This document shows, piece after piece, positions 18,129 to 59,884 of a stretch of 64,000 nt of DNA. A program made the position numbers and the translations under genes. Within the stretch, counting starts at the first letter, position 1. Every line of letters begins with the position of its first letter. The notes below the pieces were generated by a model. That model was not told the DNA's origin and did no database searches. It was given only the letters and a program-made list of their open reading frames with translations. Origin of the DNA: Kineothrix sp. IPX-CK (GTDB lineage Bacteria > Bacillota > Clostridia > Lachnospirales > Lachnospiraceae); NCBI RefSeq assembly GCF_039134705.1, contig NZ_CP146256.1, positions 806,001-870,000 on the forward strand, written 5' to 3'.

Positions 18129-19385
18129 ATGGTAAAGGTATCTGTTATTATTCCGGTATATAATGATGAAAAATATATTGTACAGTGTTTAGAAAGTGTT
18201 CTTGATCAGACATTGAAAGATATAGAGATTATTTGTGTTGATGATGGTTCCGCTGATTCATCATACGATATCTTATGTAAATATAGCAGAGAGGATAGCA
18301 GAATAAAAGTTTATCATCAAGAGAACAAAGGTGCAGGCGAAGCCCGTAATCTTGGTATAAATAAATCACAAGGAAGATTTTTGATCTTTTTGGATTCCGA
18401 TGATTTTTGGATTGATAAAGATGGAATTGAAAAAATGTATTCTATCTGTGACAAATACGGACTAAAGGCTTGCGGTAGTAAGAGTAAAAAATTAGAAAAT
18501 GGAAAAGTGTCGGATGAATACTTCTATCGAATAGAACCATCAGATGAAATTTATAGTTATTTGGATTTTCAAATGGATTATGGTTATTGCAGTTTTCTGT
18601 TTTCTAAAGAAGTATTAGTCAATAATGGAGTATTTTTCCCTTTATACAGACGATACCAAGATCCTCCTTTTTTTGCAAAAGCGTTATTTTATGCGGAGCA
18701 ATTTATGATTGCAGACACTGATTTATGCTGTTATAGAAAGTCCAATATAATTCTAAAAATGAATAATAAAAAAATCAAACATTTACTGCTTGGCTTGCTG
18801 GACAATCTGGAATTTGCGGAAAATCATAACTTAGAATTATTATTTGATAAAACGCTTCAACGTTTAGAATATGAATATGGCCATATTATCCTACACGGGG
18901 TTAGTTTGGAAAATATGGAAATTTTGGAATTATTAATCAAAGTTAACACAATTGTAAAAAAGCATTATGATGATAACTATATAATAAGCCCATTAAAAAA
19001 AATATTAACAATAATTGATAATGAATATAATAATTATGAAAGTTATATACAAAACTTAATATTAAAGAATGATAAAATAGTAATATATGGTGCAGGTAAT
19101 TATGCAAAAGCATTTATAAATTATTTAAGAAATCTTAATATTTTAGAGAAAGTAGGATTCATTATAGTCTCTTCAAAGAGAAATAATGAAAAGAAATTGG
19201 AAAATCTGGATATTGTGGAGATCAATGATCTGCCTGATGATTATGATCGTAAGAATCTTATTTTAGTGGCGACAAGCGGAGGCTATTATAGAGAAATAGA
19301 AAAAAAATTACTAGAAAAAGGTTTGTCACATTTCGAATTGTTAGATGATGTTTTTTTGGGTAAACTGGCAGGAGGCTTGTCATAA
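18129..19385 (+). CDS. GT2 glycosyltransferase with C-terminal Rossmann-like module
   Basis: 418 residues. Residues 1-225 are a GT2 domain: VSVIIPVYNDEKYI, VDDGSADSS, GAGEARNLGI and FLDSDDFW. Residues about 315-415 form the recurring module, with IVIYGAGNYAKAF, LILVATSGGYYREI and a short acidic end. The start is ATG 18129 after AAGAAAGG. The fusion of a GT2 to this module is repeated in the next gene, so they may be an old duplication, although their module sequences have diverged. The module could bind a nucleotide-sugar or dock the enzyme to partners; neither is shown. Confidence 0.8.
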   Translation: MVKVSVIIPVYNDEKYIVQCLESVLDQTLKDIEIICVDDGSADSSYDILCKYSREDSRIKVYHQENKGAGEARNLGINKSQGRFLIFLDSDDFWIDKDGIEKMYSICDKYGLKACGSKSKKLENGKVSDEYFYRIEPSDEIYSYLDFQMDYGYCSFLFSKEVLVNNGVFFPLYRRYQDPPFFAKALFYAEQFMIADTDLCCYRKSNIILKMNNKKIKHLLLGLLDNLEFAENHNLELLFDKTLQRLEYEYGHIILHGVSLENMEILELLIKVNTIVKKHYDDNYIISPLKKILTIIDNEYNNYESYIQNLILKNDKIVIYGAGNYAKAFINYLRNLNILEKVGFIIVSSKRNNEKKLENLDIVEINDLPDDYDRKNLILVATSGGYYREIEKKLLEKGLSHFELLDDVFLGKLAGGLS

Positions 19386-19400
19386 TGGGAATGAAGGATA

Positions 19401-20615
19401 ATGGATAAACAAAGAGTTTACATAAGTATTATTGTGCCAATTTACAATTCTGAGAAATACCTGGAGCAATGTATTACAAGTATTATTAATCAAGATCTCA
19501 ACCAGATTGAAATCATTTTGGTTGATGATGGTTCTACAGATTCTTCAGGAAGAATCTGTGATTATTATGCTGGCAGAGATACGAGAATTAGAGTATTTCA
19601 TAAAAAAAATGAGGGATTGGTCAAAGCCAGAAAAACAGGTGTACAAATTGCGACGGGTACATATATCGGTTTTGTAGACAGCGATGACTGGATAGAGAAA
19701 GAGATGTTTTATGAGCTTTACAGGATGGCTGTTTTACATAATGCGGATATTGTGGCCGAAGGGGTAATAGAGGATAGAAATGGAAGCAGGCAATATGTGA
19801 AAAATATGTTGCCTGATGGTATATATAGAGGAGATAAAGAAAGAATATATCTGCTTACCAATATGATGAATTGCGAAGACTATTTTAACCTGGGAATACA
19901 GCCCTATTTATGGAATAAGTTAATTCGTAGAGAATTAGCATTAAAACATATGTTAACAGTAGATGAAGAAATTAGAATTGGTGAGGATGGCGCTGCGCTG
20001 TATCCAATGATGACAGATTCGAACTGCATTGCAGTAACAAGTGGATATCATTATCATTACTGTATAAGAAAAGGCTCTATGATATGGAAAAAAGAGCAGG
20101 GAAATAAAGAATACATAGGTACGTGTCAGCTTTATAAATATTTAAAGTCGAAATTAAATGAGTGCAATGTAATGCCATTATTGGAGAAATCGTTGAGGCG
20201 TTACATAATAAATAATCTTTTGGTTAGAACTTATGAGAGGTATGCCAATTATGGAGCTGACAATGTACTATACCCTTTTAAAGGAGTGAAAAAGGGGGAT
20301 TCGATTATTCTTTATGGTGCAGGTGCTTTTGGTAGAGCTGTCTACGAATATGCATCGGCAAATAATCTGTTGAAGGTGACCTTATGGGTAGACAGAGATG
20401 CTCATTCTTATCAGAATTTGGGATTGCCCGTTAAGCAGATAGATATGGTCCGGCCCGATGAGGGCGTAAAGGTTATTATAGCAGTCTTCAGTGAGACAGC
20501 AGTGAAAAATATTAAAGATTTTTTGCATGGAAAAGGTTTCTTGGAAGAGCAGCTTGTATGGATAACAATAACAGAAAAAGATGAAGATGCCATATTGCTT
20601 AAGTTGATGAATTGA
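19401..20615 (+). CDS. GT2 glycosyltransferase with C-terminal Rossmann-like module
   Basis: 404 residues. The GT2 part has ISIIVPIYNSEKYL, VDDGSTDSSG, GLVKARKTGV and GFVDSDDWIE. The GLVKAR form replaces the usual GxxxAR.xG block. Residues about 300-400 are the shared module: IILYGAGAFGRAVYEY, a VDRD second-strand end and VKVIIAVFSETAV. It lies 15 bases after the preceding modular GT2 and 22 bases before an FkbM enzyme with the same module at its N-terminus. Soluble and cytoplasmic by sequence. Donor and acceptor are unknown. Confidence 0.8.
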   Translation: MDKQRVYISIIVPIYNSEKYLEQCITSIINQDLNQIEIILVDDGSTDSSGRICDYYAGRDTRIRVFHKKNEGLVKARKTGVQIATGTYIGFVDSDDWIEKEMFYELYRMAVLHNADIVAEGVIEDRNGSRQYVKNMLPDGIYRGDKERIYLLTNMMNCEDYFNLGIQPYLWNKLIRRELALKHMLTVDEEIRIGEDGAALYPMMTDSNCIAVTSGYHYHYCIRKGSMIWKKEQGNKEYIGTCQLYKYLKSKLNECNVMPLLEKSLRRYIINNLLVRTYERYANYGADNVLYPFKGVKKGDSIILYGAGAFGRAVYEYASANNLLKVTLWVDRDAHSYQNLGLPVKQIDMVRPDEGVKVIIAVFSETAVKNIKDFLHGKGFLEEQLVWITITEKDEDAILLKLMN

Positions 20616-20637
20616 CTGGGAGATATCGGATAAACGA

Positions 20638-21729
20638 ATGGGGTTAGGTATGTATGAACAACTAAAAGAATTATATGACGCTCTGGCAGATGAAGAGTCA
20701 AAGATGATTTTTAGTCAAAGGCTGCTTTATAGTATGACAGGAAACTGGTCATATATAAAAAATATGCTAATGTATTATCGAGAGAAAGATAAAGATTACT
20801 ATAATCTGTTAGACGTATTGGCAGAACCGGGATTGTTTAGAGATAAAAAAATAGTGCTTTTTGGAACAGGGGTCTGGGGACATGCGCTAAGGAACGTTTT
20901 ATGCCAATGTGGTCTGGAATTTTATGCTTATTGCGATAATGATGGTAATAAAGCAGGGGGCACGATGTATGGTAAGATAATTCTATCAGCGGAAGAATTA
21001 TTTTCAAAACATAGGGATGCACATATTTTGATAGCTACCGATTTATATGAACGAGAGATTTTAGAGCAATTACATCAAGAGTCATTTGATGATGAACAGA
21101 TTATTCGACTATCATATAGTGAAAGAAAGATGTATTTTGACGATGAGATTATACACCCTTTGAAAGAGGAAGTCTTTGTTGACGGAGGCGCTTTTGACGG
21201 GAGTAACTCAATAGAATTTGCCAATTGGTGTAAAGGGAACGTAAAGAAAATATATGCTTTCGAGCCGGACTCGAAGAATATAAAAAAATGCAGGGAGAAT
21301 TTTGAGAAAAATTTAAAATCCGAATTTGAAATTTTGAATGCCGGATTATGGAGCGAGCGGACCATTTTACATTTTTATGAAGAACATAGTGTTGGCTCCA
21401 GGATCGCAGAGGAAGGGACTGCGAGTGTTTCAGTAACAAGTATAGATGAAGCGGTAAAGGAGAATGTGACATTTATTAAGATGGATATAGAAGGATCGGA
21501 ATTGGAAGCATTAAAGGGCGCAGTTAAGACTATACAAAGAGATAAACCCAGGTTGGCTATTTGTCTGTATCATAAACCGGAAGATATAGTTGAAATACCA
21601 CGATTGATTAAGAACTTAGTACCGGAGTATAAATTGTACATTAGACATTATATTCCATACCATTTTGATACGGTGTTATATGCAGTGATTGATAATGAAG
21701 AAACAGATGGTATAGGGAATGAAGAATAA
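20638..21729 (+). CDS. FkbM methyltransferase with N-terminal Rossmann-like module
   Basis: 363 residues. Residues about 65-160 carry the shared module (KIVLFGTGVWGHALRNVL, YCDND, AHILIATDLYE). Residues about 170-355 are an FkbM domain: EVFVDGGAFDGSNSIEF for SAM binding, YAFEPDSKNIKKC and VTFIKMDIEGSELEAL. The start may be ATG 20638 or ATG 20650; neither has a strong ribosome site. The end overlaps the DUF4422 gene by 11 bases. The expected reaction is methyl transfer from SAM to a sugar hydroxyl or phosphate. The linked module suggests that several enzymes of this locus share one ligand or partner. Confidence 0.8.
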   Translation: MGLGMYEQLKELYDALADEESKMIFSQRLLYSMTGNWSYIKNMLMYYREKDKDYYNLLDVLAEPGLFRDKKIVLFGTGVWGHALRNVLCQCGLEFYAYCDNDGNKAGGTMYGKIILSAEELFSKHRDAHILIATDLYEREILEQLHQESFDDEQIIRLSYSERKMYFDDEIIHPLKEEVFVDGGAFDGSNSIEFANWCKGNVKKIYAFEPDSKNIKKCRENFEKNLKSEFEILNAGLWSERTILHFYEEHSVGSRIAEEGTASVSVTSIDEAVKENVTFIKMDIEGSELEALKGAVKTIQRDKPRLAICLYHKPEDIVEIPRLIKNLVPEYKLYIRHYIPYHFDTVLYAVIDNEETDGIGNEE

Positions 21730-22816
21730 TATTGATGATATTTTAATAGCAAATGGAATAGAGCGATTTTCAATATTTGGAGCAGGTATGGTTGCTTCGA
21801 GCGTAGCCGAGATTCTTTTTGTAATGAGAGGTGTACTTCCTTTTTGCTTTGTAGTTTCCGATACAGAGATTAACCCTCAGATGGTTATGGAGCGGCCGGT
21901 TGTGTCGTGGGATGATTATAGCAGAATCAAAAAGGATAATGAGATGCTTCTGATAGCCATCCCGGAGCCTTTGCAGGAAGAAATTGAGGAAAAATGCCGG
22001 AGGGCTGATATAGCATATCGATGTATTACATCTGAAGTGGAAAATATGCTCCTTTATGATTACTATAGTTTAGAGGCACGTTTTCCTGTTTGGGATTCTT
22101 CGAAAAAAATTGCTCAACATCAGGATGCTTCATCAGAATGTAAAATCTATATGGCTTGCGGTCCCTGGGACAAATCGTTAAAAAGGAGCTATGAAATATC
22201 TGGATTTATGTATCCCATTCAAGCGGGAAAAGCCTTATCGGATATAAGAATTGCGGATATCGCAGATGATACCGGAAATAATATTTCTGACAGAAATCCT
22301 TACTACTGTGAGCTGACGGCCCTCTATTGGATTTGGAAAAATACGGGAAACGATTATGCAGGTCTGTGCCATTATCGGCGTTGGTTTGTTTTTCGCGATA
22401 AAGAACTGCCTCAGATGTTAGATAGCGGGGGTGATGTGATTCTGCCGTACCCTTCTATTCAGTATCCGAATGCTGCCGTACATGAGAAGCGATATATAAG
22501 CTGTGCCGTTCGCCAGATAATCCGTGAAGTATTGGCGGAGTGTTCCGTACAAGAGATGCAGTCTTATGAAGCGTTGCTGGAAGACCGGTATATTTATAAT
22601 TTTAATATGCTGATAGCTAAAAAGAAAGTCCTTGATGATTACTGTGAATGGCTGTTTAATATAATTTTTGAAGTAGAGCAGCGGTGCATTGAGAAACAGA
22701 TAGTAATCGAAAAAAGACAGCAGGGATATTGGGGAGAAGTTCTTTTATCTTATTACTTTATGAAAAAGAGAACGGATTTGAAGGTGATTCATATAGGAAG
22801 AACAATACTCATATAG
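21719..22816 (+). CDS. DUF4422 glycosyltransferase-like protein with Rossmann-like module
   Basis: 365 residues. Residues 10-115 are the recurring module (FSIFGAGMVASSVAEI, EMLLIAIPEPLQEE). Residues about 140-360 match DUF4422, seen in capsule transferases: CKIYMACGPWDK, YPIQAGKAL, DRNPYYCELTALYWIWKN, GLCHYRRWF and FNMLIAKKKV. The YCELTALYWIWKN and HYRR motifs are the strongest family marks. It overlaps the FkbM gene, so the two are probably made together. Members are thought to be retaining or inverting hexosyltransferases of capsule synthesis; the sugar is unknown. Confidence 0.82.
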   Translation: MKNNIDDILIANGIERFSIFGAGMVASSVAEILFVMRGVLPFCFVVSDTEINPQMVMERPVVSWDDYSRIKKDNEMLLIAIPEPLQEEIEEKCRRADIAYRCITSEVENMLLYDYYSLEARFPVWDSSKKIAQHQDASSECKIYMACGPWDKSLKRSYEISGFMYPIQAGKALSDIRIADIADDTGNNISDRNPYYCELTALYWIWKNTGNDYAGLCHYRRWFVFRDKELPQMLDSGGDVILPYPSIQYPNAAVHEKRYISCAVRQIIREVLAECSVQEMQSYEALLEDRYIYNFNMLIAKKKVLDDYCEWLFNIIFEVEQRCIEKQIVIEKRQQGYWGEVLLSYYFMKKRTDLKVIHIGRTILI

Positions 22817-22847
22817 CAAAATATAAGAGATAACATTGAAAAGTGAA

Positions 22848-24982: not shown

Positions 24983-25534
24983 CTATTTTTTCCCCGGAGT
25001 TTCCTTAATGCTTCTTGCAAGCTCTTGATTACCCCGGGTTATTTTTTTGCGTATTCCGCCGATACTTTTCAATACGGATGTGACGTGCTGTTCTTTAGAA
25101 GCTGGCCTCGGAGATGTCTTGTGTTTCCGACGCTGCAATGGCTTGTGAGAAGCTGCAGCAGATGTTTGTACATGCGCCATTGTGCGTATTTGTGAGGAAG
25201 ATTCAACAGCCGCTGCCGAGGCTTTTGCTGCAACAGCTTCTATTTCTATCCGCATCGCCTCACTCTCGTTTCGAAGTTTCCCCATTTCCTCGGAAAGCAT
25301 CGCGATTTGCGACAAAAGCTCCCTTTTCTCATTGGCTGCATTTTGCAAAGCTTCGTTATTCTTAATAATCTTATTTTCCAAAAGACTTACTTTAACATTT
25401 TCTTCAGACGCGATATTTTTTATTCGAGTTTTCAGATCGATAATGGCAGCGTTTAAACTTTCGTTTTCTTCGCGAAGAGCATTCAGAGTTATATCGGTCT
25501 GAGATACGTTATAGCCAAATAAGCTTTTTTTCAT
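24983..25534 (-). CDS. Coiled-coil protein of unknown function
   Basis: 183 residues on the reverse strand. The N-terminus KKSLFGYNVSQTDI followed by a long heptad-rich helix (residues about 18-110, with LREENESLNAAI and NEKRELLSQIAML) recalls the N-terminal part of DivIVA/GpsB-like or other septum-associated coiled-coil proteins. Residues about 110-183 are Ala/Ser-rich and then strongly basic, which may bind nucleic acid or acidic polymers. No membrane segment. It is transcribed alone, between two mobile-like repeat elements. AAGGAATG lies before the ATG. The function is unknown; the DivIVA likeness is weak. Confidence 0.7.
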   Translation of the reverse strand: MKKSLFGYNVSQTDITLNALREENESLNAAIIDLKTRIKNIASEENVKVSLLENKIIKNNEALQNAANEKRELLSQIAMLSEEMGKLRNESEAMRIEIEAVAAKASAAAVESSSQIRTMAHVQTSAAASHKPLQRRKHKTSPRPASKEQHVTSVLKSIGGIRKKITRGNQELARSIKETPGKK

Positions 25535-25949: not shown

Positions 25950-28127
25950 ATGAGCAGCATATTGATCGTAGGCGGTTACGGTACCTTTACGGAGGAATTG
26001 ATCAACAAATTCTATAAAGAGAAATGGCAAATCTACACGCTGACGAATAGCCGGAGGCTTGTAAAGCCTGCACATGTATTTGAGCAGTATACCTTCGCTT
26101 ATGACAGCGGCAGCGTGGAAGAGGTCATAACGAGCTGTCGTCCGGATGCGATTTTGTTCACAGGGGCTTATGACCCGCTTTATCGGTGGGAGGACGAGCA
26201 CGTGCAGGAGGAATCGCTGAACTACATTGCTGGACTGAGCAATCTTCTTATGTCCGCAGTGGCCTTTGGAGTGCGGCATTTCGTTTATGTGTCCTCAGAC
26301 AGGGTGTATGAGGATGAATATGCGGTGGATATCAGGGAGGAGATGCCGGTTTCACCTAATAGCTTTCAGGGGATGACGATTTCCCAGGGAGAGAACCTGG
26401 CGATGCACTTTAATGCGACGACGCAGATGGAAGTGACGATCCTGCGCATTGCCCGTATGTATGGGATTCCTGTGAACCGAGAGTCTTGCACCGATATTTA
26501 TTCCAGAATGTGCATGAAGGCGTTAGTATCAGGCAGACTGTCTGTGAACGCGAAGCGGGTGCTGTCTGCGCTGTATGTGAAGGACGGCGTGGAAGCGGTG
26601 TATCTTTTGATCGATGCGCCGGAAAGAAAGCACAGACTTTACCATGTTTCTTCCATGGAGGAAGTAACCGAAGACGAGGTTGCTGAGATCATCCGGGAAA
26701 AATATTCTCATCCTGTGGAAATCGTGGACCGCACTGTAGGTCTGCGCCAGCGGGTTATTTTATCCAACGAAAGATTTTGCTCGGAATTCCCCTTTCAGGT
26801 GAGGAACGGGTACGAAGAAATGATTCCTATGATTATCGCTCACATGAAGCGCCATAAGAATCTTTTTTTACATAATGACGAACAATATGAGGGCAAGAGG
26901 TTTCAGGACCGGATGCTCCGTCTGCTGAAAAAGGCGGTTCCGTTTTTGGAGACCGTAATCTTTTTCTTTCCGGTTTATTTTTTGAACATCCAAGCAGAGG
27001 GCGGCTCTTATTTGGGACAGATTAATTTCTACTTGTTATATGTACTTCTTTTTGCGGTGGTACACGGCAGGCAGCAGGCAATTTTCTCCGCCTTGCTCAG
27101 CGTAATCGGCTACTGCTTCGGGCAGATGTATACGACTTCTGGATTTTCCTTATTAATAGATATCAATACTTACATATGGACTGCACAGATTTTTATTGTG
27201 GGCCTGACAGTGGGACATTTGAAGGATAAGTTCCGCGAGACAGAGGAGGACAAGAACGAGCGGATCGACTTCCTCTCGGACAGGCTGAGCGATATTACTG
27301 TAATCAATTCCAGCAATACGAGGATCAAGAATTATTTTGCGGAAAAATTGATCAGCAGTGCGGAAGGTGTCGGACGTATTTACGAAATCACCTCAAGGCT
27401 CGAACGGGCCAAGACGGGAGAGGTGCTGTTTTCTGCTCTCGATACTCTATCCGAGATCATGGAAACGAGAGACGTTTCGATTTATCTCGTTTCCAACGAG
27501 AACTATTGCCGCCTGGCCTCGGCTTCCAGCGAGAAGGCCCGTTCCCTGGGCAAATCGTTGGCAATAGCCGACTATGGGGCAATGTTTGACGTGATGATGA
27601 GGAAACAGGTTTATATCAACCGGTCGTTAGACACCGAGCTTCCTATGATGGGAAGCGCACTTTTTGACGATAAAGGCATTATGAGAATCGTTGTGCTGCT
27701 CTGGAATATTCCCTATGAGCAGATGACTTTGTATCAGGCGAACCTTCTGACGGTGGTGGGTGCCCTCGTATATTCCATGGTAGTCCGCGATGCAGATTAT
27801 ATGGATGCGCTGGCATACCGCAGATTTCTTCCCGGAACGGGTATCCTTCAGGCGGAGGCATTCGAGTCGATGTTAGATATCTATCGGAATGCGGGAGAGA
27901 AGGGGTATGCGCAGTCCAGCGTTCTCTATATTCAATCAAAAGGCATGCCGCTTACGGAGCTAAGCAGTAAGATTCGTTTGCTGCTGCGCGACACGGATTA
28001 TGCAGGAGTGGTAGCGGGAGGCGGTATAGCGGTGCTTCTGACCAATACGAATAAGAACGAGGCGGCATATGTAAAGGCACGCCTGGAAGAGAATGGGATC
28101 GTTACTTATCAGGAGCAGAAAATATGA
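25950..28127 (+). CDS. pelD: SDR-PelD fusion: degenerate epimerase domain, membrane segments, GAF, degenerate GGDEF
   Basis: The start is ATG 25950 with GGGAGA 10 bases upstream; longer in-frame versions lack a site. 725 residues. Residues 1-290 are an extended SDR fold (ILIVGGYGTF, FVYVSSDRVYE), but the catalytic YxxxK is replaced by MTISQ and the third loop Gly by Thr, so it is probably not an enzyme. Residues about 315-430 hold four membrane helices (FLETVIFFFPVYFL, FYLLYVLLFAVVHG and two more). A GAF-like domain spans about 465-600. The end is a degenerate GGDEF (AGGGI) with a preserved I-site RDTD at about 680-683. PelD is the c-di-GMP receptor that activates PelF. The stop overlaps pelE. 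Confidence 0.75.
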   Translation: MSSILIVGGYGTFTEELINKFYKEKWQIYTLTNSRRLVKPAHVFEQYTFAYDSGSVEEVITSCRPDAILFTGAYDPLYRWEDEHVQEESLNYIAGLSNLLMSAVAFGVRHFVYVSSDRVYEDEYAVDIREEMPVSPNSFQGMTISQGENLAMHFNATTQMEVTILRIARMYGIPVNRESCTDIYSRMCMKALVSGRLSVNAKRVLSALYVKDGVEAVYLLIDAPERKHRLYHVSSMEEVTEDEVAEIIREKYSHPVEIVDRTVGLRQRVILSNERFCSEFPFQVRNGYEEMIPMIIAHMKRHKNLFLHNDEQYEGKRFQDRMLRLLKKAVPFLETVIFFFPVYFLNIQAEGGSYLGQINFYLLYVLLFAVVHGRQQAIFSALLSVIGYCFGQMYTTSGFSLLIDINTYIWTAQIFIVGLTVGHLKDKFRETEEDKNERIDFLSDRLSDITVINSSNTRIKNYFAEKLISSAEGVGRIYEITSRLERAKTGEVLFSALDTLSEIMETRDVSIYLVSNENYCRLASASSEKARSLGKSLAIADYGAMFDVMMRKQVYINRSLDTELPMMGSALFDDKGIMRIVVLLWNIPYEQMTLYQANLLTVVGALVYSMVVRDADYMDALAYRRFLPGTGILQAEAFESMLDIYRNAGEKGYAQSSVLYIQSKGMPLTELSSKIRLLLRDTDYAGVVAGGGIAVLLTNTNKNEAAYVKARLEENGIVTYQEQKI

Positions 28128-29047
28128 CAGGGATTGGACCGGTTATGGCAATTTGCATAGGAAATGTACTCGTGGCATTAGGTATATTCTTCTGGGCCTG
28201 CTTCCAGAAAAAGGGCAGGCGCAGCACAGGATTCTTAATCGCATGGTTCATTTTTATCGTTCCTTTCTTCGGACTATTGTATCTGCTGCTCAGCCGTTTT
28301 ATTAGTTTTTTGAATCGCAGGAAGAACGTGGATATGAGCGATGTAAGCTTCAGTCAGGAGAGAGAGAAGCTTGTTCTGCCTCCGGATCTGGAGACGGAGA
28401 TGAATTATGTTCCTATTCAGGATGCCATGGCGGTTTCGGATACTTTAAGCCTTCGCCGCCTGATTCTGGATGCGCTTAGAAACGATGCGAAGAGAACTGT
28501 GGCCAGTATTGCGGTAGCCATGAACAGCAAGGATACGGAGACTTCCCATTATGCGGCATCAGTTATTCTCGATGCGTTGTCGGAGTTTCGTTCCACCGCT
28601 CAGAATATGATCGAGCATACCCAGAAGCTTCCGGAGGACGTGGAGATGAACCTGCTTACCTTCGACTATATCCATGAGGTGCTGAAGATGAAGATTATGA
28701 CGAATATGGAGCAGGAAGCTTATATTTACACACTGGATAATGTTGCGGAGAATCTTTTTACCCATAATCTTTGGTATATGAGTGCGACTCATTATCTTTG
28801 GATGACAGATTGGTTTATTAGCCTTAAGGACTATAATATGGCGGATAAGTGGGTATCCAGAGCCGGACAGTACAGACCTAATGTGCTGGATACTTTTAAG
28901 GCGAGACTGCATTTATATTATAATCAGCGCAATCAGACAGCTTTTTTCGAATGTCTGGATGAGCTTGGCGATAGTGATGTGGCAGTGGATGAAGAGATTC
29001 TGAATCTGTTTCGATTGTACGGTAACCAGAAGGATAGGAGCTTATGA
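28124..29047 (+). CDS. pelE: PelE-like membrane protein with helical repeat domain
   Basis: 307 residues. Two N-terminal membrane helices (about 5-26 and 37-62) are followed by a cytoplasmic helical region from about 95, with the NDAKRTVASIAVAMNSKDTETSHYAAS segment typical of PelE-like proteins and later TPR-like helices (FTHNLWYMSATHYLW, DYNMADKWVSRAG). In known systems PelE bridges PelD to PelF and PelG at the inner membrane. It overlaps pelD by 4 bases and the DUF2194 gene by 4 bases. The call rests on order, topology and this segment; sequence identity to Gram-negative PelE is expected to be low. Confidence 0.7.
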   Translation: MTGIGPVMAICIGNVLVALGIFFWACFQKKGRRSTGFLIAWFIFIVPFFGLLYLLLSRFISFLNRRKNVDMSDVSFSQEREKLVLPPDLETEMNYVPIQDAMAVSDTLSLRRLILDALRNDAKRTVASIAVAMNSKDTETSHYAASVILDALSEFRSTAQNMIEHTQKLPEDVEMNLLTFDYIHEVLKMKIMTNMEQEAYIYTLDNVAENLFTHNLWYMSATHYLWMTDWFISLKDYNMADKWVSRAGQYRPNVLDTFKARLHLYYNQRNQTAFFECLDELGDSDVAVDEEILNLFRLYGNQKDRSL

Positions 29048-30870
29048 TTTCAAAAGGAAATTATTTTGTAATTTTCATATTGTTGTTTATGGTCTTTGTC
29101 ATGTTCATGTTTGCAGGTGTTTCGTCCAATGTACTGTCGGCTACATCGGAAAATACCAGAGCTGAAGATAAGGCCGAGGTCAGCTATGAGGACAGAGAGG
29201 TCTTTCCTGCGCAGCAGAAGCGGAGTGTTGCCATCCTCACATCATACGGTGAAAATGCAGTTTCCAGGCTTCTTGAGGAATGGTGTGTTTATAATAAATA
29301 TCCCTATCAGCTTTATACCTCGTGGGTGCCGGAGGAGGAAATAGGTGCCTATGATTTGCTGCTGTTCGGAGATTATGAGCTGACGGCTAAGAACAGCGAT
29401 ATTCTATACTCCTATGCGAAGCTGGGCAAGACTATGATTTTTACAAAGCTTCCGGTTTATGATGAGATTGCTGGAGATTCGCGGTTTGCCGCCTTTTTTG
29501 GCATCAAAGAGGGAGTAGAGGGAGAAATGAAGGCGGACGGAATCAAGATATTTTCTGATTTCATGCTGAATAAGGAGAGAGTGTATAAAGAAGGTGATTA
29601 CTTCGGGGAGGAGGATGACACTCAGATTGAAGTACCGTATTATTCACTGACGTCGGGTTATGAAGTGTATGCGGTAGGTGTCCTGGAGAACCAGAAGGAG
29701 CTTGGCATCGAGGATAAGGATTTGCCGCCTCTTCTTTGGAAGACTACCACTGAGAAGTCTTTCATTTTCTCGGTGAACAGCGATATCTTTGATGGAATGC
29801 CCCTGCTCGGTATCCTTACCGGCTTCATGGCACAGGAGGGAGACGTATTTCTTTATCCCATAGTAAATGCCCAGACGATTTCGGTGCTGAATTATCCGTA
29901 TTTTTCCGGCGAAAACGATGAGACGATGCAGAAGTTATACAGCCGCAGCTCCGAGGCGGTAGCCAGAGATCTGCTTTGGTCTAACATTGTCCAGATATTG
30001 AAAAATTACGGCAGTTCCTATAGCTTTTTTGCTTCTTCGAAATTGGATTACGGGTCGGACGAAGTGGAACGCGCAGATTATCTTAATTTTTACCTGCGGG
30101 AGATAAGCAAGCTTCCGGGTGATATGGGATTGTCCTTCGGCCATGTGTCGGATACGGGCCTGAATGAGATACAAAAGGATAACCAGCAGTTTTTGGAGAA
30201 AAACCTGCCGGAATACGGCTTTACGGCTTTATACGCGGCGGACTTTAAGCCTGAGGAAATGACAGAGAATTCGAAATACGAGAATCTGAAGGATATAAGG
30301 CTGATTATGTCGGGATATGAGGAAGGGGATTCCCTGATAGATTTTCTGGACGGCGGCATTCTCTCTGTGAAATTCAATCTGGATGGTTACCAGCATGAGA
30401 CAATGGACGACCTGCGCATGATTTGTGTAGAAAATGCTCTGGGAATGTGTAACATGGAGGTGGATATCGGACGGGTATTTTATCCTGAAAGCGACGAGGA
30501 CGAATGGAACAATCTAAGCCTGAAATGGTCCAGGGGCGATACGTATTTCAAGGATTTTTCCAAGCTGGATACGGTATCCTTGTATGAGATGGAAAAGCGT
30601 ATCAGACGCTTTATGGCGCTTGATTATGTTTATGAGCGGGACGAAGAGGGCATAATGGTTCGGATGAAGAATTTCGAAGAAGAGGCTTACTTCGTGCTCT
30701 GTACCTATAATAACAGCGTGCAATCTGCAGAGAATGCCGATGTGGAGCAACTTTCCGATACGGCTTACCTGATAAGGGCTTTGGCTCCGGAGATAAGGAT
30801 TCGTTTATCGGAGGAAAATGTCCTGGAAAAGCCGGAAAATAACAGGACGGTTCCCAGTAACCCGCAGTAA
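29044..30870 (+). CDS. DUF2194 membrane-anchored protein in the PelA position
   Basis: 608 residues. One N-terminal membrane helix (about 7-30) and a large extracytoplasmic part. Residues about 60-190 form an alpha/beta domain (VAILTSYGENAVSRLL, YDLLLFGDYEL) and about 280-520 look like a degenerate polysaccharide-deacetylase fold typical of DUF2194 (SVLNYPYFSG, SYSFFASSKLDYG, MGLSFGHVSDTG). The full His-His-Asp metal set of active deacetylases is not evident. In Gram-negatives, PelA modifies and cuts the polymer in the periplasm. This protein sits between PelE and PelF, so it may do a related job outside the membrane. Its stop is 20 bases before pelF. Confidence 0.65.
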   Translation: MISKGNYFVIFILLFMVFVMFMFAGVSSNVLSATSENTRAEDKAEVSYEDREVFPAQQKRSVAILTSYGENAVSRLLEEWCVYNKYPYQLYTSWVPEEEIGAYDLLLFGDYELTAKNSDILYSYAKLGKTMIFTKLPVYDEIAGDSRFAAFFGIKEGVEGEMKADGIKIFSDFMLNKERVYKEGDYFGEEDDTQIEVPYYSLTSGYEVYAVGVLENQKELGIEDKDLPPLLWKTTTEKSFIFSVNSDIFDGMPLLGILTGFMAQEGDVFLYPIVNAQTISVLNYPYFSGENDETMQKLYSRSSEAVARDLLWSNIVQILKNYGSSYSFFASSKLDYGSDEVERADYLNFYLREISKLPGDMGLSFGHVSDTGLNEIQKDNQQFLEKNLPEYGFTALYAADFKPEEMTENSKYENLKDIRLIMSGYEEGDSLIDFLDGGILSVKFNLDGYQHETMDDLRMICVENALGMCNMEVDIGRVFYPESDEDEWNNLSLKWSRGDTYFKDFSKLDTVSLYEMEKRIRRFMALDYVYERDEEGIMVRMKNFEEEAYFVLCTYNNSVQSAENADVEQLSDTAYLIRALAPEIRIRLSEENVLEKPENNRTVPSNPQ

Positions 30871-30890
30871 GACTGGCAGGAGGATTGGAT

Positions 30891-32342
30891 ATGATTGTAT
30901 GCATGATAGCGGAGGGGTGTTATCCTTATGTTGTCGGCGGTGTATCCAGTTGGATACACAGCATCATTCGGTTGTTTCCGAATATAGAATTTAAATTGAT
31001 TACAATAGTTGCCGACCGTAGTGTAAGCGGCAAATTCGCCTATAAGCTTCCGGATAATCTGACGGAGATTCACGAGGTGTATCTTCAGGACGTGGACTGG
31101 ATAGGACATCATAAGGCGGGGAAGAAACGGCTTCATCTAAGCGATGAGGAGGCCGAGGCTCTGCGCAGCCTGGTAATCGGCGAGGATGTAGACTGGATGA
31201 GAGTGTTTTCTATGTTTAATAAGAGGAAAATCTCCATTAACCATATATTGATGAGTCCGGAATTTCTTGAGATTACGAAAGAATATTATTCCATGAAATT
31301 CTCAGACATAACCTTTTCGGACTTTCTATGGACGCTGCGCTCTATCTATCTGCCGCTTTTTTTCGCATTAAAATGTAAGCCGCCCAAGGCTGACATTTAT
31401 CATTGCGTGGCTACGGGCTATGCCGGAATCATCGGCAGCAAGGCGTTCTCCATGTATCCTGATTCTAAGCTGCTCATCAGCGAACACGGTATTTATACGA
31501 GGGAGAGGGAAGAGGAGATTATTAAGGCAAAATGGGTACAGGGAGTGTACAAGACTATTTGGATCGAGCAGTTTCGCAAGATGTCCAAATGTGCTTATCA
31601 CTATGCGGATTTGGTGACCGCACTTTTCGAGCATGCGCGCACTTTGCAGATAGAGCTGGGATGTCCTGCAGGCAAGGCTATCGTGACGCCTAACGGCATC
31701 GATGCGGAGCGGTTTGCGGCAGTTTCGGGGAAGGATCCGGAGGATCCTTATATCAATGTGGGTGCGATTCTTCGTGTGACACCAATTAAGGATGTAAAGA
31801 CGATGATTAATGCGTTTTATTACGCACACGAGAAAGAACCCCGGCTGAAGCTTTGGATTATGGGACCTGACGATGAGAATCCTGAATACGCACAGGACTG
31901 CAAAGATCTGGTAAAGGCTTTGCAGGCGGAAAACATTGAATTTACAGGAAGTATTCAGACGACGGATTATATCGGACGGATGGATATGACGATTCTTACC
32001 AGCATCAGCGAAGGCCAGCCGCTTACGATTCTTGAGGGTTTTGCGGCGAAGAAACCTTGCATCGCCACTAACGTAGGTAACTGCTACGGCTTAGTTTACG
32101 GAGAAGACGATTCTTTCGGTGAGGCAGGTATTGTTGTGCCCGTTATGAATATTTCCGAAATTACCCGTGCGATCTTAAGGCTGGCCGAACATCCCGAGAT
32201 GGCTCGCCGGATGGGAGAGAATGGATATAACCGTCTGATGAACAAATATAAAAGTGTCTATATGGAGGAAGCATACCGTAAGATATACCGAACGCTTGGT
32301 TCGGCGGAATATACGGAAGAGATCTTCGTACCTCACCCATAG
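30891..32342 (+). CDS. pelF: PelF glycosyltransferase (GT4)
   Basis: The start is ATG 30891, 7 bases after AGGAGG; an upstream in-frame TTG is less likely. 483 residues. The N-terminus IAEGCYPYVVGGVSSWIH is the PelF signature. The donor domain has VTPNGIDAERF, ILRVTPIKDVKTMINAF and TSISEGQPLTILEGFAAKKP, with the EX7E pair in SEGQPLTILE. PelF is the soluble polymerase of Pel, using UDP-HexNAc (GalNAc and GlcNAc in the Pseudomonas system; a UDP-hexose cannot be ruled out here). It is expected to work with PelD, PelE and PelG. The most securely identified gene of the operon. Confidence 0.92.
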   Translation: MIVCMIAEGCYPYVVGGVSSWIHSIIRLFPNIEFKLITIVADRSVSGKFAYKLPDNLTEIHEVYLQDVDWIGHHKAGKKRLHLSDEEAEALRSLVIGEDVDWMRVFSMFNKRKISINHILMSPEFLEITKEYYSMKFSDITFSDFLWTLRSIYLPLFFALKCKPPKADIYHCVATGYAGIIGSKAFSMYPDSKLLISEHGIYTREREEEIIKAKWVQGVYKTIWIEQFRKMSKCAYHYADLVTALFEHARTLQIELGCPAGKAIVTPNGIDAERFAAVSGKDPEDPYINVGAILRVTPIKDVKTMINAFYYAHEKEPRLKLWIMGPDDENPEYAQDCKDLVKALQAENIEFTGSIQTTDYIGRMDMTILTSISEGQPLTILEGFAAKKPCIATNVGNCYGLVYGEDDSFGEAGIVVPVMNISEITRAILRLAEHPEMARRMGENGYNRLMNKYKSVYMEEAYRKIYRTLGSAEYTEEIFVPHP

Positions 32343-32384: not shown

Positions 32385-33860
32385 ATGGCCGGTCTTGGCA
32401 TTCAGTTAAATAAAATATTCGATAAACGGTCGGTAGCCGCCGCCCTTTACGGGATAGGCTTTAGCTTTGTATACACGATTGCACCTATGCTGGTGGTCAT
32501 CGGTTGTCTGTTTGCGATGTATAAGGTGCTGGGATTCGATACGGTAGGGTATCTGGAAAGAGAGACGTTTTCCAGCAGCATTCTCTATATATTCATCTTT
32601 TCCCTTCTGACCTCCGCCCCTTTTAACTCTGTGCTGTCGAAATTCCAGACGGATAAGATATATGAGCAGAGATATGAGGATATCAGACCTTGTATTTATG
32701 TGGGAACGATTACAAACCTGACCTTTTCCTCCATGGTGGCGATTCCGTTCTATATTTATGAAACCATAGTGGGCGGCGTTCCGGTATATTATGTGTTTAC
32801 TACTTATATGGGATTTCTTGGGTTGTCACTGACCTTTTCCACGATGGTGTATAACTCGATTTTAAAGCAGTATAAGAAAATATCCTTATACTTTATATGC
32901 TGCATGGGGGTAAGTTTTATTCTGTCCGCGATTTTCCGTTTTGGACTTGGATTTTCTATTACGTATAGTATGCTGCTTTCGCTGACTATTGGCTTTCTGC
33001 TCATTGCATCCCTGGAGCTTGCCAATGTGCTGCAATACTTTCCGGCCAATAGCCGAAACTATAAAGCTGTGCTTCATTATTACAGAATATACTGGAAACT
33101 GATCGTTTCTAATTTTCTTTATACTCTGGGGTTGTTCATTCATAATTTCGTATTCTGGACCCAGCCGTGGCACATGGTCGTCCGTAATACCTACGTAAGC
33201 AATCAGCCTTATGATATGGCATCCTGTCTGGCCATGTTCACCAATATTTCTGCCAGTGTGCTGTTCATCTCCAGAGTGGAAATGCATTTCCACGAGAGAT
33301 ATAAGGATTATACGGAGGCCGTTATCGGCGGCAAACTGGATAGTATCGAGAAGGCGAAGAAGCGGATGTTTAGAGGGCTTTCCTCGCAGCTTCTCTCCCT
33401 TGTGCATATTCAGTTCATCGTGTCAGTCATTGTCTATCTGGTTGCAATCGTGGTACTTCCCTTTATGGGATTCTCGGGGATGGTTATGGAGATATATCCT
33501 CAGCTTGCCGTGGGATATTTCATTTCCTATCTGATGTATTCAGAGCTTTTGTTCCTGTATTACTTCGATGATCTGACAGGAGCAATGATAAACGGCATTA
33601 TATTTGCGGGAGTAGCGCTTATAGGCTCTATATTTTCCGCAAGGCTGCCTGCTATCTGGTATGGGGCGGGATTTACGGCGGCGGCGTTTGCAGCGTTTAC
33701 CTTTTCCTATTTCAGGCTCCGCTCCGTGGAGAAAAACCTGGATAATCACATCTTCTGCCGGGGAACAGTGCTGAAGCAAGTGAATTCGGATATGCCGGAG
33801 GCGGATGTTTATAATATATATAGAGGGAAAACGGATTTGAAAAAATCAAAGGTACGATGA
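32385..33860 (+). CDS. pelG: PelG polysaccharide transporter (MOP family)
   Basis: 491 residues with about 12 hydrophobic helices. It begins AGLGIQLNKIFDKRS, as PelG proteins do, and has YERETFSSSILY-like and FNSVLSKFQTDKIYEQRYEDI segments in the first third. PelG is a Wzx-like transporter thought to form the inner-membrane path for the polymer made by PelF. GGGAGGC lies upstream of the ATG. It is 42 bases after pelF, and its stop overlaps the region ahead of the DUF2304 gene. A basic tail after the last helix should be cytoplasmic. Confidence 0.9.
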   Translation: MAGLGIQLNKIFDKRSVAAALYGIGFSFVYTIAPMLVVIGCLFAMYKVLGFDTVGYLERETFSSSILYIFIFSLLTSAPFNSVLSKFQTDKIYEQRYEDIRPCIYVGTITNLTFSSMVAIPFYIYETIVGGVPVYYVFTTYMGFLGLSLTFSTMVYNSILKQYKKISLYFICCMGVSFILSAIFRFGLGFSITYSMLLSLTIGFLLIASLELANVLQYFPANSRNYKAVLHYYRIYWKLIVSNFLYTLGLFIHNFVFWTQPWHMVVRNTYVSNQPYDMASCLAMFTNISASVLFISRVEMHFHERYKDYTEAVIGGKLDSIEKAKKRMFRGLSSQLLSLVHIQFIVSVIVYLVAIVVLPFMGFSGMVMEIYPQLAVGYFISYLMYSELLFLYYFDDLTGAMINGIIFAGVALIGSIFSARLPAIWYGAGFTAAAFAAFTFSYFRLRSVEKNLDNHIFCRGTVLKQVNSDMPEADVYNIYRGKTDLKKSKVR

Positions 33861-36370: not shown

Positions 36371-37738
36371 ATGGAATATAAGGGTAGGATTACAAAATTG
36401 AAATGGATTCCGCTTCCCCGAACGGAAAAGGCGGAGGCTTTATACAATCCATATTGCGGATTTTATTCCATCTACCGTTTTTTTGCTGACAGTAGGACGG
36501 AGGCCGTAGAGGGAGTGCCTATTGAAGAGGTGCGGGCGGAGCCCTCGAAACAGCTTTGCCTTGTGGAAATCAATCTTCTGCCTTTTAACGAGACGGAGTT
36601 GCCGGAAGAAGCTTTGGAAATTGTACGCATGATCTTTGAACGTTTTATTGAGCTGAAAAAGCAAATGGTGGTACGCTTTTTATATGATTGGGAAGGAAAG
36701 GGGATATTGAGCGAGCCGAAGGATATTGCCGTTATTATGAACCATATGAGCCAGCTCGAGCCGCTGCTGAAGGAATATACGAAGCATATTTACATCCTTC
36801 AGGGCCTTTTTATCGGAAGCTGGGGGGAGATGCATAATTCCCGTTACTTAAGCGAGCGGCACATCGCCAGATTAGCCAGACATCTGTACGAATGCTCTGG
36901 AGAAAATACCCAGATTGCACTGAGGTGCCCGAACTTTTGGCGAATGCTTTTCAAGACCTGCCGGCCATTAGAAAGGGCTGTTGCTTTCACGGATATTCAG
37001 AAGGCGCGGTTTTCCTTATTTAATGACGGCATCATGGCTTCTGACACGGATTTTGGAACCTATGGAAATGTGGGTATGAAGGATTCCAAATCCTACAGCG
37101 AAAAGTGGACACGAAAGGATGAGCTGGAATTCCAGAACCAGTTGTGCCGATACGTCGCCAACGGAGGAGAGGTAATTAACGAATGCCCGGGTAACGACGC
37201 AGGTCCTGCGCTGGAGGTGCTTAGAAAGATGAGGATCTCCTATCTTCACAGCGATTATGACGAGAAAGTACTGAATAAATGGAAGGCTTCCAAGTCAGGT
37301 GTAAACGAGACGCTATGGAAGGAGAAGACGGCTTTCGAATACATAGAAGCTCATTTGGGATACCGGTTTACGGTAGAAGAAGCGTCCCTGTCCATTGCTC
37401 CGGATAAAAGCGGAAGATTTAAGGCCTCTGTTAAGATAGTCAACCGGGGCTTCGCGCCCTGTTACCATAAATATGAGGTGAAGTTTGTAATTCGCGACGC
37501 TTCGTTTTCTGAGATATACGAATACGGGGTGGATACGGACACCCGTATGTGGATGCCGGAAGAGCCGGTGGAACTGGAAGCGTTGATTTCTACGGAGCAA
37601 TTTGGCTTAAGCAGTTATATTTTATGTATAGGAATTTATGACCCGCAGGCGGACAGTCCGATTCAGCTGGCTGATACCTTCTCGTCGGCGGATCATATGG
37701 GAAATTATAATCTTGGCAATTTTACGGTGATTTCTTAG
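36371..37738 (+). CDS. DUF4874/DUF4832 glycosidase-like protein
   Basis: 455 residues without a signal peptide. The N-terminal half resembles DUF4874 (NPYCGFYSIYRF, VVRFLYDWEGKG, QGLFIGSWGEMHNSRY), a TIM-barrel-like domain in which GxWGExHxS recalls glycoside hydrolase acid sites. The C-terminal half resembles DUF4832, ending in an immunoglobulin-like segment (FKASVKIVNRGFAPCYHKYEV). Relatives are usually secreted; the lack of an export signal here is odd and suggests a cytosolic role or non-classical export. It might trim or edit polymer. The gene follows the GT2 by 23 bases. Family call only. Confidence 0.7.
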   Translation: MEYKGRITKLKWIPLPRTEKAEALYNPYCGFYSIYRFFADSRTEAVEGVPIEEVRAEPSKQLCLVEINLLPFNETELPEEALEIVRMIFERFIELKKQMVVRFLYDWEGKGILSEPKDIAVIMNHMSQLEPLLKEYTKHIYILQGLFIGSWGEMHNSRYLSERHIARLARHLYECSGENTQIALRCPNFWRMLFKTCRPLERAVAFTDIQKARFSLFNDGIMASDTDFGTYGNVGMKDSKSYSEKWTRKDELEFQNQLCRYVANGGEVINECPGNDAGPALEVLRKMRISYLHSDYDEKVLNKWKASKSGVNETLWKEKTAFEYIEAHLGYRFTVEEASLSIAPDKSGRFKASVKIVNRGFAPCYHKYEVKFVIRDASFSEIYEYGVDTDTRMWMPEEPVELEALISTEQFGLSSYILCIGIYDPQADSPIQLADTFSSADHMGNYNLGNFTVIS

Positions 37739-37774
37739 GGTGCGCAGTTTTTGTGTAAGAGTAAAGGAAAAGTT

Positions 37775-39727
37775 ATGTCGGATTTATTATTGAATGTTAT
37801 CTTAATTGCAAGAAGAAATACTTCGTTAAGCTTTGTCCGGGCTTTGCAAAGTGTTCTCTGCCAGACCTATGCTCCCATTAAGGTGCTGGTGGTGGATGCC
37901 AATGAGCCCGATAGCTTATACAGTCTGGGGATGCAGGAAGATTTGATCGATTTTCCGGAGGTAGAGTATGTGAGGCTGGACCCCTCTCTTTCGATTGCAG
38001 CTATCCGTAATCAGATGCTTGGGAATGCGGAGGGAGAGTATATCGCATACTTGAGCAGCAATGATATATGGCGGTTGGATAAAGCTGCATTACAGATCGG
38101 CGGGCTGGAAGATTCGCCGGAGGCAGCGGCGTCTTGCAGCGGTGGAATACTCATGGACGAGCGGGGATCGGAGTTGGAAGTAGAGCCTTTGATGGAACAC
38201 CCGGAGGAGGATTCCTCTCTATGGCTGCTAGACAATCCGGCGAGGAGTCCGGGTCAGGTTATCTACAGAAGGGCGGCAGTGCTGGAAGAGGGCGGATTTG
38301 ACGAACAGTTTGTCAACTTTTGCGACGGCGATATGCTGTTTCGGCTAAGCCGCAGAAAAAGGATTCTGTTTCCTGCCGATTCCTTGTGCGAATGCAGGAT
38401 TACGTCTGACGACGAAGCCTATGACTGGAATGATTTTAAGGATGGACAGAAGATTCTGTATAAATATACGGAGATTTTCCTGGTGAATAAGCGCATGACA
38501 CAGAATTTTTATGGGCGTATGCTCTTTCTTGCAAGAGTCAACTATATGTGGCTGAACTATTTCATCTATATTTATATGTACTTCATCAAGTCGCCGCTGC
38601 GTTCTGTCTGGATGCTTTTCAAGAAGGCTGCAAAAAGCGTTTATTATATGATGAAATGGAATAAGCGTGCCTTCCGGATGCTGGCCGGAAAGCTTCGTTT
38701 GAATCGGGATATACATATGATTCAAAACGGGAAGCTGGAAAAGGTAAAAGCGCTGAAGGCTCCCTGCGAGCCGGAGAAGGATGAACAAATACCACTTGAG
38801 TTTTCTTCTGCCCGTGAATATAATGAGAAGAAGTCTCTTCATTTTTGTTTTGACAAAAAGCTTAATAGTATTGTCATCCCGGAATATGTGACGGTAATTA
38901 AGAAAGGCATGTTCTATGGCTGTGATAATCTGATCAGCGTGGAAATACCTAATACAGTACTGGAAATTCAAGCCTACGCCTTTCATAAATGCAGGAACCT
39001 GCGCTATGTCACCTTCAAAGAAGGAAGCCGCCTCGGCAAAATCGGAGATTATGCTTTTGCGGGCTGCCGCCTGTTAAAAACGATGAGTCTGCCCTCCAAT
39101 ATCGTGCAAATCGGCAAATACGCTTTTGCCGAATGCTGTTCCTTAAGGCAGCTATCCTTTACCTACCTGCATCGCGGAGAGGAAAGGACGAATAATTTAT
39201 ATCCTACCGCGCTAGGCACGCTTCCCCGCTATATGTTTTTGGGTTGTACCGGTCTGCTGTCGGTGGAATTCGGTGTGAACAGCATATTGGAGACAATAGA
39301 AAACGGAGTCTTCCTGGGCTGCCGGAGACTGCAGAATGTGGTTCTGACCGGAGGGGTGAAATATATAGGAAGCTATGCCTTCGCATACTGCAAGGAGCTG
39401 GAGACAGTGGCGATTCCGCAGATCGATGCGCTGAAAGGCATAGGAAAGTGTGCTTTTATGCACTGCGAGACCTTGGATTATTTTCTGTTTCCTAACCAAA
39501 TCGAGAGGATTCCTATGCGGACTTTTTACGGCTGCCGGAATTTAAAGCTCGTCAAGATTCCTAAGAAAGTGCTTTCCATTAACCATCAGGCTTTTGCGAA
39601 ATGTAGCTCGCTTACCAATGCAATTATAATGTCAGGAGATACCTCTATCTCGCCTACGGCCTTCGACAGGCATACGCAGGTGCGGATTCCCGAAATCGAA
39701 GGGAACGAGGCTGCTTCTGCCGGCTAA
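37775..39727 (+). CDS. GT2 glycosyltransferase fused to BspA-type leucine-rich repeats
   Basis: The start is ATG 37775 after AAAGGA; TTG 37751 is less likely. 650 residues. Residues 1-230 are a GT2 domain with VILIARRNTSLSFVRAL, VLVVDANEPDS, the modified metal block YLSSNDIW (no DxD) and FCDGDMLFRLSR. A hydrophobic segment at about 253-272 is followed by a very basic region, so it is more likely to sit on the membrane than to cross it. Residues about 355-640 are LRR_5 repeats (IPEYVTVIKKGMFYGC, IPNTVLEIQAYAFHKC and more). BspA repeats normally lie on secreted adhesins, so this fusion is unusual. The repeats may organise the synthesis complex. Confidence 0.78.
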   Translation: MSDLLLNVILIARRNTSLSFVRALQSVLCQTYAPIKVLVVDANEPDSLYSLGMQEDLIDFPEVEYVRLDPSLSIAAIRNQMLGNAEGEYIAYLSSNDIWRLDKAALQIGGLEDSPEAAASCSGGILMDERGSELEVEPLMEHPEEDSSLWLLDNPARSPGQVIYRRAAVLEEGGFDEQFVNFCDGDMLFRLSRRKRILFPADSLCECRITSDDEAYDWNDFKDGQKILYKYTEIFLVNKRMTQNFYGRMLFLARVNYMWLNYFIYIYMYFIKSPLRSVWMLFKKAAKSVYYMMKWNKRAFRMLAGKLRLNRDIHMIQNGKLEKVKALKAPCEPEKDEQIPLEFSSAREYNEKKSLHFCFDKKLNSIVIPEYVTVIKKGMFYGCDNLISVEIPNTVLEIQAYAFHKCRNLRYVTFKEGSRLGKIGDYAFAGCRLLKTMSLPSNIVQIGKYAFAECCSLRQLSFTYLHRGEERTNNLYPTALGTLPRYMFLGCTGLLSVEFGVNSILETIENGVFLGCRRLQNVVLTGGVKYIGSYAFAYCKELETVAIPQIDALKGIGKCAFMHCETLDYFLFPNQIERIPMRTFYGCRNLKLVKIPKKVLSINHQAFAKCSSLTNAIIMSGDTSISPTAFDRHTQVRIPEIEGNEAASAG

Positions 39728-59667: not shown

Positions 59668-59674
59668 AATAAAG

Positions 59675-59816
59675 GTCGTTTTGACCGTGCCGAAGACAGT
59701 AGGTGCCGAATGTGAACAGTCATCTGTTCCTGCGGCGTAAGTGTATCGCCTACCGAGGAGAAGAGTTGATGATGTATTGTGACTTTAAACCTTTCTGTCT
59801 TCAGAGAGGTTTTTTA
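59675..59816 (+). ncRNA. Ribosomal protein L10 leader
   Basis: The stretch between the promoter and rplJ follows the L10 leader layout: a folded part with TGCCGAAGACAGTAGGTG and a GCGGCGTAAG...CGCCTACCGAGG segment that can pair with it, then an attenuator-like hairpin at 59788-59816. In Firmicutes, the L10(L12)4 complex binds this leader and causes early termination when it is in excess. The assignment is by pattern and position. Confidence 0.75.
59788..59816 (+). terminator. Attenuator hairpin in the L10 leader
   Basis: AACCTTTCTG (59788-59797) pairs with CAGAGAGGTT (59802-59811) over a 4-base loop and is followed by five T. It fits a regulated terminator upstream of rplJ. Confidence 0.8.
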
Positions 59817-59884
59817 TATGTATAAAACTCCTATCGGCAAGAAGAGGGCCAAAGCCCTTACAAATCTATAAGGAGGTAGAAAAA

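Follow-up and report, generated by a model that had tools for sequence, protein, structure and literature searches.

The 64,000-nucleotide stretch of Kineothrix sp. IPX-CK analysed here (NZ_CP146256.1, positions 806,001 to 870,000; hereafter the window) contains a pelD gene whose predicted product joins a short-chain dehydrogenase/reductase (SDR) domain to the membrane, GAF-like and degenerate GGDEF parts of a putative receptor for cyclic di-GMP (c-di-GMP). The best explanation overall, to which we give a probability of roughly 60%, is that this protein is a PelD c-di-GMP switch in which the SDR has been kept as a pseudoenzyme for assembly or docking. The gene and its parts, with the evidence for each, are:

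25950 to 28127, + strand: pelD, 725 aa, in the order SDR, transmembrane, GAF-like, degenerate GGDEF (open reading frame (ORF), translation, Pfam)
25950 to 26849, + strand: SDR domain, residues 1-300, apparently catalytically dead (Pfam, fold search, motif losses)
25971 to 25991, + strand: former GxxGxxG loop, residues 8-14, GGYGTFT, with Thr for the third Gly (alignment)
26367 to 26381, + strand: former YxxxK, residues 140-144, QGMTI (alignment on intact relatives)
26931 to 27221, + strand: four hydrophobic segments, residues 328-424, with a DUF4118 match at 359-438 (hydrophobicity, Pfam)
27345 to 27794, + strand: GAF-like region, with approximate limits at residues 466 and 615 (GAF_3 on relatives; weak whole-length Foldseek match to PelD 4dn0)
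27795 to 28124, + strand: degenerate GGDEF domain, about residues 616-725 (profile and fold searches)
27987 to 27998, + strand: RDTD, the RxxD of an inhibitory site, residues 680-683 (sequence, alignment)
28080 to 28082, + strand: R711, probably a third residue for c-di-GMP (from its spacing relative to the published ones)

The frame runs from the ATG at 25950 to the stop at 28127 (window ORF list and translation), exactly as a first-pass annotation made from the sequence alone had it, and its start Met is also the start Met in relatives. The nearest named relative retrieved, the PelD of Kineothrix alysoides, is 90% identical over residues 1-725. The host genome is a single contig of 4.72 Mb. 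An alignment of 100 rows was built, of which 91 were treated as fused (23 with an intact site, 41 of the window's group, 26 distant and one further row, L035); the remaining nine are four free SDRs, two separate PelDs and three PelDs without an SDR. As the 91 fused rows come from nearly as many genomes, the fusion is no assembly error.

Pfam matched residues 3-254 to RmlD_sub_bind (1.9e-19) and Epimerase (3.7e-16), and a fold search with a predicted model of the domain, albeit a weak one (mean predicted local distance difference test, pLDDT, 51), returned SDR enzymes. The Rossmann SDR fold and the RmlD/Epimerase signature of an extended SDR are thus both present, in agreement with the first-pass annotation. 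The second Foldseek match of this weak model was the UDP-GlcNAc C4-epimerase of Pseudomonas protegens (6wjb/6wj9), the PelX of the literature, which has the same fold but is an active enzyme in its own right, with an S121/Y146 pair according to its entry title. Chains of MAT2B (9qpp_E, 4ktv_E) were also listed. MAT2B is a regulatory, non-catalytic SDR subunit; its partner is a different one and it belongs to a different clade from the PelD SDR, so that the likeness is an analogy only.

When aligned on intact-site relatives, the places of the catalytic Tyr and Lys are occupied by Q140 and I144 (QGMTI), that of the third loop Gly by T14 and that of the beta-2 Asp by T32. The loss of the YxxxK pair had been noticed before, at MTISQ; the loss stands, and its place lies slightly upstream of that motif. 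The missing loop Gly had also been recognised, and the losses go further, to the Asp. The protein therefore has neither the Tyr and Lys of YxxxK, nor the full GxxGxxG, nor the beta-2 Asp of an active UDP-hexose 4-epimerase. All four residues are kept in the 23 intact fused rows (23/23 each), and the four aligned free SDRs also have an intact site, while in the window's group each of the four is found in 0/41. In the 26 distant rows Tyr occurs in one, Lys in one and both together in none, although these columns are uncertain because the sequences are very divergent; L035 likewise lacks intact catalytic residues. A survey of homologues for the same fusion and the same loss, which had been suggested, thus finds 41/41 of the window's group dead among 91 fused rows, and supports the view that the SDR domain of the window PelD is catalytically dead. 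In 33/41 rows the Tyr place holds Lys or Arg, which might indicate that the domain still catalyses, using other residues. As the catalytic Lys, the beta-2 Asp and the third loop Gly are missing from 41/41 rows, and as the host genome has an ordinary galE, this is extremely improbable.

The first-pass annotation had proposed that the SDR is a metabolite sensor, which would bind NAD(H) or a nucleotide sugar but not convert it and so let Pel synthesis answer to both c-di-GMP and substrate supply. The fold is indeed that of sugar-nucleotide SDRs and the domain is under strong purifying selection (see below); moreover G8 (98%), S115 (100%), S116 (85%) and A73 (88%) are retained across the 41 rows, and a new set conserved in the window's group, T32, F44, Y51, G72, D75 and W80, could form a changed pocket. 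Against this, nine pocket columns that are invariant in the intact relatives (G14, D32, H70, A72, N92, Y140, K144, R205 and D206, assigned from general SDR anatomy) all stand at 0/41 in the window's group, and bulky aromatics are found at several pocket places (Phe at position 70 in 79%, Trp at 80 in 89% and Tyr at 92 in 74% of 38 non-redundant rows). Together these speak against the binding of NAD(H) and, with less force, of UDP-sugars, although the pocket as a whole was lost no more than the other columns (see below). Judged from sequence, NAD(H) sensing looks unlikely and UDP-sugar sensing somewhat less so, and the sensor proposal as a whole, which these results leave unsupported, is an unlikely account of the domain.

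The C-terminal half is that of a PelD. RDTD lies at residues 680-683, five residues ahead of AGGGI, the degenerate GGDEF; its reading as RxxD was confirmed, and RxxD is present in 93/93 readable rows. The place of R711, a residue that the first-pass annotation did not mention, is Arg in 91/93 rows and fits by spacing the later c-di-GMP Arg of PelD in B. cereus (R395) and P. aeruginosa (R402) (PMC7112168); R711 is probably the third c-di-GMP residue. One genome (G542) has two dead-SDR PelDs of different depth, L107 and L062, and in one of the two the R711 place is taken by Lys. A profile of eight close C-terminal parts gave no match to PDB sequences at E 1, while a profile of 32 diverse rows matched GGDEF chains (best 8.6e-5), PelD not being among the matches listed. 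Foldseek placed PelD 4dn0 at rank 30 (E 5.6e-3, root-mean-square deviation 14.7), a weak match, and 4dn0 was not among the 50 matches listed by VIA. The assignment to PelD made by the first-pass annotation is supported by the degenerate GGDEF, by RxxD and by the position of the gene at the head of a pelDEAFG row. Its four membrane helices and GAF-like domain are upheld in part: four hydrophobic segments (about 328-349, 353-374, 376-394 and 401-424) appear at relaxed cut-offs but just the first two at the strict cut-off, and GAF_3 matches the PelDs of relatives while a Pfam scan of the window PelD itself gave no GAF match.

The origin of the fusion was examined in trees. In a careful SDR tree of 57 rows, SDRs linked to PelD, whether fused or adjacent, split from 22 free SDRs at 100/100, which fits a single fusion, and the window's group, with 15 rows, is set off by a branch that also has 100/100. 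Four long free SDRs, including the one encoded in the window at 22836, were left out of this tree and placed in a quick 88-row tree. In the quick tree the PelD-linked and free SDRs are again divided, with a support of 96, and the dead rows come together at 97, where long branches meet. Three unfused SDRs (L160, L161 and L164) nest there at different points within the intact fused SDRs. L161 has the gene row SDR, pelD, pelE, pelA, pelF, pelG, and the best PDB relatives of its SDR are UDP-glucose 4-epimerases (2.5e-67); L160 has SDR, pelD and later pelA and pelF; L164 has SDR and pelF only, no pelD being seen at the locus. In L160 and L161 the SDR and pelD lie in different reading frames that overlap or are only a short distance apart, and a frameshift, real or a sequencing error, could account for this as readily as a true split. 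A separate SDR gene beside pelD was considered as the ancestral state and rejected, as the unfused rows nest inside the fused ones. In a different arrangement, at L122 (3423-6626) a complete free SDR gene, which groups with free SDRs in the quick tree, lies directly upstream of a pelD with a degenerate SDR of its own, a possible division of labour.

In a careful PelD tree the PelDs without an SDR stand apart at 100/100, and two intact-site fusions, L129 and L130, lie next to Lachnospiraceae with weak support (77/76). On a tree of the PelD C-terminal part a single loss of catalysis was marginally rejected (approximately unbiased (AU) test, p 0.046). With the dead rows grouped in the SDR tree and a single loss marginally rejected on the PelD tree, catalysis would have been lost later, once or twice.

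Ratios of nonsynonymous to synonymous substitution rates (dN/dS) were sought for six pairs, four of which gave SDR values: 0.06 (NG86) and 0.08 (YN00) for the window and K. alysoides, 0.04 and 0.05 for the window and L023 (synonymous rate, dS, saturated), 0.05 and 0.07 for L022 and L023, and 0.04 and 0.04 for L025 and L026. Values of 0.04-0.08 in four close pairs signify purifying selection, and hence that the dead domain is kept for something. The GAF region gave similar or lower values (0.01-0.13), and the GGDEF region exceeded the SDR in 4/4 pairs. These figures bear on the suggestion that the SDR is a dispensable remnant heading for loss. In its favour, a distant Lachnospiraceae group is far more degenerate, PelDs without an SDR exist (L037-L039, L136) and work in B. 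cereus, and a streptococcal strain without the domain still forms a Pel-dependent biofilm (PMC7112168). But a remnant would not be expected to have, as the SDR has in the four pairs, a dN/dS close to the GAF value and lower than the GGDEF value, nor would its length be maintained throughout the window's group, and we consider this explanation quite improbable.

The preferred reading, a c-di-GMP switch with a retained pseudoenzyme, would work as follows. The degenerate GGDEF domain would bind c-di-GMP through R680, D683 and probably R711, as conservation and the published B. cereus PelD suggest, and binding would turn on the synthesis of the polymer by PelF, together with PelE and PelG, as in B. 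cereus. The N-terminal domain would derive from an SDR like the UDP-hexose 4-epimerases, linked to PelD once. In relatives with an intact site this domain is probably a source of UDP-GalNAc at the synthase; on the branch of the window protein it would have lost catalysis, and probably NAD binding too, and been retained as a pseudoenzyme. Extended SDRs dimerise, and the most likely present job of the domain is structural: the pairing of PelD subunits, or docking on PelE, PelF or PelG.

Several points weigh against this. The docking role is reached by elimination; the helices expected at the dimer interface are no more conserved than the rest of the SDR (0.47 and 0.55 versus 0.50); the model of the domain is weak, with its mean pLDDT of 51; and the SDR is unneeded for the switch as such, since a PelD without it works in B. 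cereus (PMC7112168). Nor was a targeted loss of the pocket seen. The intact rows agree throughout in 98 columns, 17 of which were placed in the cofactor/substrate pocket on general SDR anatomy; half or more of the 41 rows keep 6 of these 17 and 24 of the 81 elsewhere (p 0.77). As the pocket columns were lost no more than others, the whole domain has drifted.

For the family as a whole, a tentative course can be suggested. An enzyme may have been linked once to a second-messenger receptor, serving first as a supplier of sugar nucleotide at the synthase and later, in Lachnospiraceae, as a dead docking or control domain, with active, split and dead stages all still kept.

The spread of the fusion was followed in genome surveys, which are partly overlapping samples and not censuses. 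In a phylum sample 42/398 genomes matched at E 1e-15, and by our own reading of the match listing 11, including the window's own, reach into PelD, the rest being SDR matches. In a family sample 58/299 matched and 54 reach into PelD; in a class sample the figures were 15/341 (E 1e-20) and 13. In the family of G165, 145/148 genomes matched at E 1e-30, mostly through free SDRs, with at least 25 full-length fusions, one of which has an internal stop. Three intact-site fusions (L129, L130 and L133) belong to the window's own class. The PelDs without an SDR are L037-L039 and L136; L136 (453 aa) and L132, which gave no SDR match, were found but left unaligned. The counts leave out same-place duplicates (L001, L022, L023, L029, L059, L060, L061, L077, L139, L140), L162, L163 and L165, whose PelDs are truncated or frame-split, the second fragments of L035 and L133, and PelD-type matches of the family, class and G165-family samples for which no locus was retrieved. 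In L035, L133/L139 and L165 pelD lies in two frames, as split genes or through frameshifts.

The genes around pelD in the window are:

22836: the window's own free long SDR gene (placed in the quick SDR tree)
28124 to 29047, + strand: pelE, assigned from its position (Pfam and NCBIfam gave no match), overlapping pelD by 4 bases
29044 to 30870, + strand: DUF2194 gene in place of the PelA deacetylase (Pfam)
30885 to 32342, + strand: pelF (NCBIfam PelF, 358 bits, cut-off 100)
32385 to 33860, + strand: pelG (Pfam PF16933, 1.6e-134)
36371 to 37738, + strand: DUF4874-DUF4832 gene (Pfam)

PelF and PelG are thus identified by curated models, DUF2194 stands at the place of pelA and pelE is assigned by position only. 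Genes for DUF2304, for glycosyltransferases and for DUF4874-DUF4832 follow 3' of pelG; DUF4832 is an accessory gene in Gram-positive pel loci (PMC7112168). Just upstream of pelD, on the opposite strand, a coiled-coil-like ORF (24983-25534, - strand) has no family match above cut-off. A single ORF at 37751-39727 combines a family-2 glycosyltransferase with BspA-type leucine-rich repeats, and four successive ORFs at 18129-22816 (two family-2-like glycosyltransferases, an FkbM methyltransferase and a DUF4422 protein) each show, by eye, a Rossmann-like GAG/GTG stretch. No known RNA element was found near pelD by Rfam at the gathering score over the whole window, no more permissive scan being run; the sole match in the window was a ribosomal protein L10 leader (59672-59825, 68.4 bits).

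The core of the finding is already known. Whitfield et al. (2020, PMC7112168) described the fusion of an epimerase-like SDR to PelD. They reported that the epimerase domain is probably functional in Brevibacillus but has changes at cofactor and catalytic residues in clostridial, streptococcal and actinobacterial proteins, and concluded that the altered domain does something other than epimerisation; the window protein is a further clostridial member. It shares the altered SDR, the predicted membrane part, the GAF-like region, the degenerate GGDEF and the pelDEAFG operon with their extended-length Gram-positive PelDs and differs from these in nothing essential, the streptococcal ones being without a GGDEF domain. 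The Brevibacillus PelD is the same fusion, and our 23 intact rows look to be of this kind, whereas the window protein has lost Tyr, Lys, the third Gly and Asp. The PelDs of B. cereus and P. aeruginosa have the same RxxD for c-di-GMP, a later Arg that probably corresponds to R711, and a degenerate GGDEF, but no SDR domain. The available parts of PMC7112168, whose wording on clostridia did not cover the intact-site fusions of the window's class, and of PMC7112194 contain neither these cases, nor the evolutionary course, nor the exceptionless RxxD count, nor the selection result, and a literature search found nothing joining PelD with a pseudoenzyme. What is added is evidence on how the SDR was fused, lost its activity and yet was kept.

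The function of the inactive epimerase domain of PelD was left open by Whitfield et al. (PMC7112168). Now that one lineage is seen to include intact, dead and apparently split versions, the dead one under purifying selection, the role of the pseudo-epimerase becomes testable by domain swaps and deletions. The answer would also show whether UDP-sugar is produced directly at a c-di-GMP-controlled synthase in some Gram-positive bacteria.
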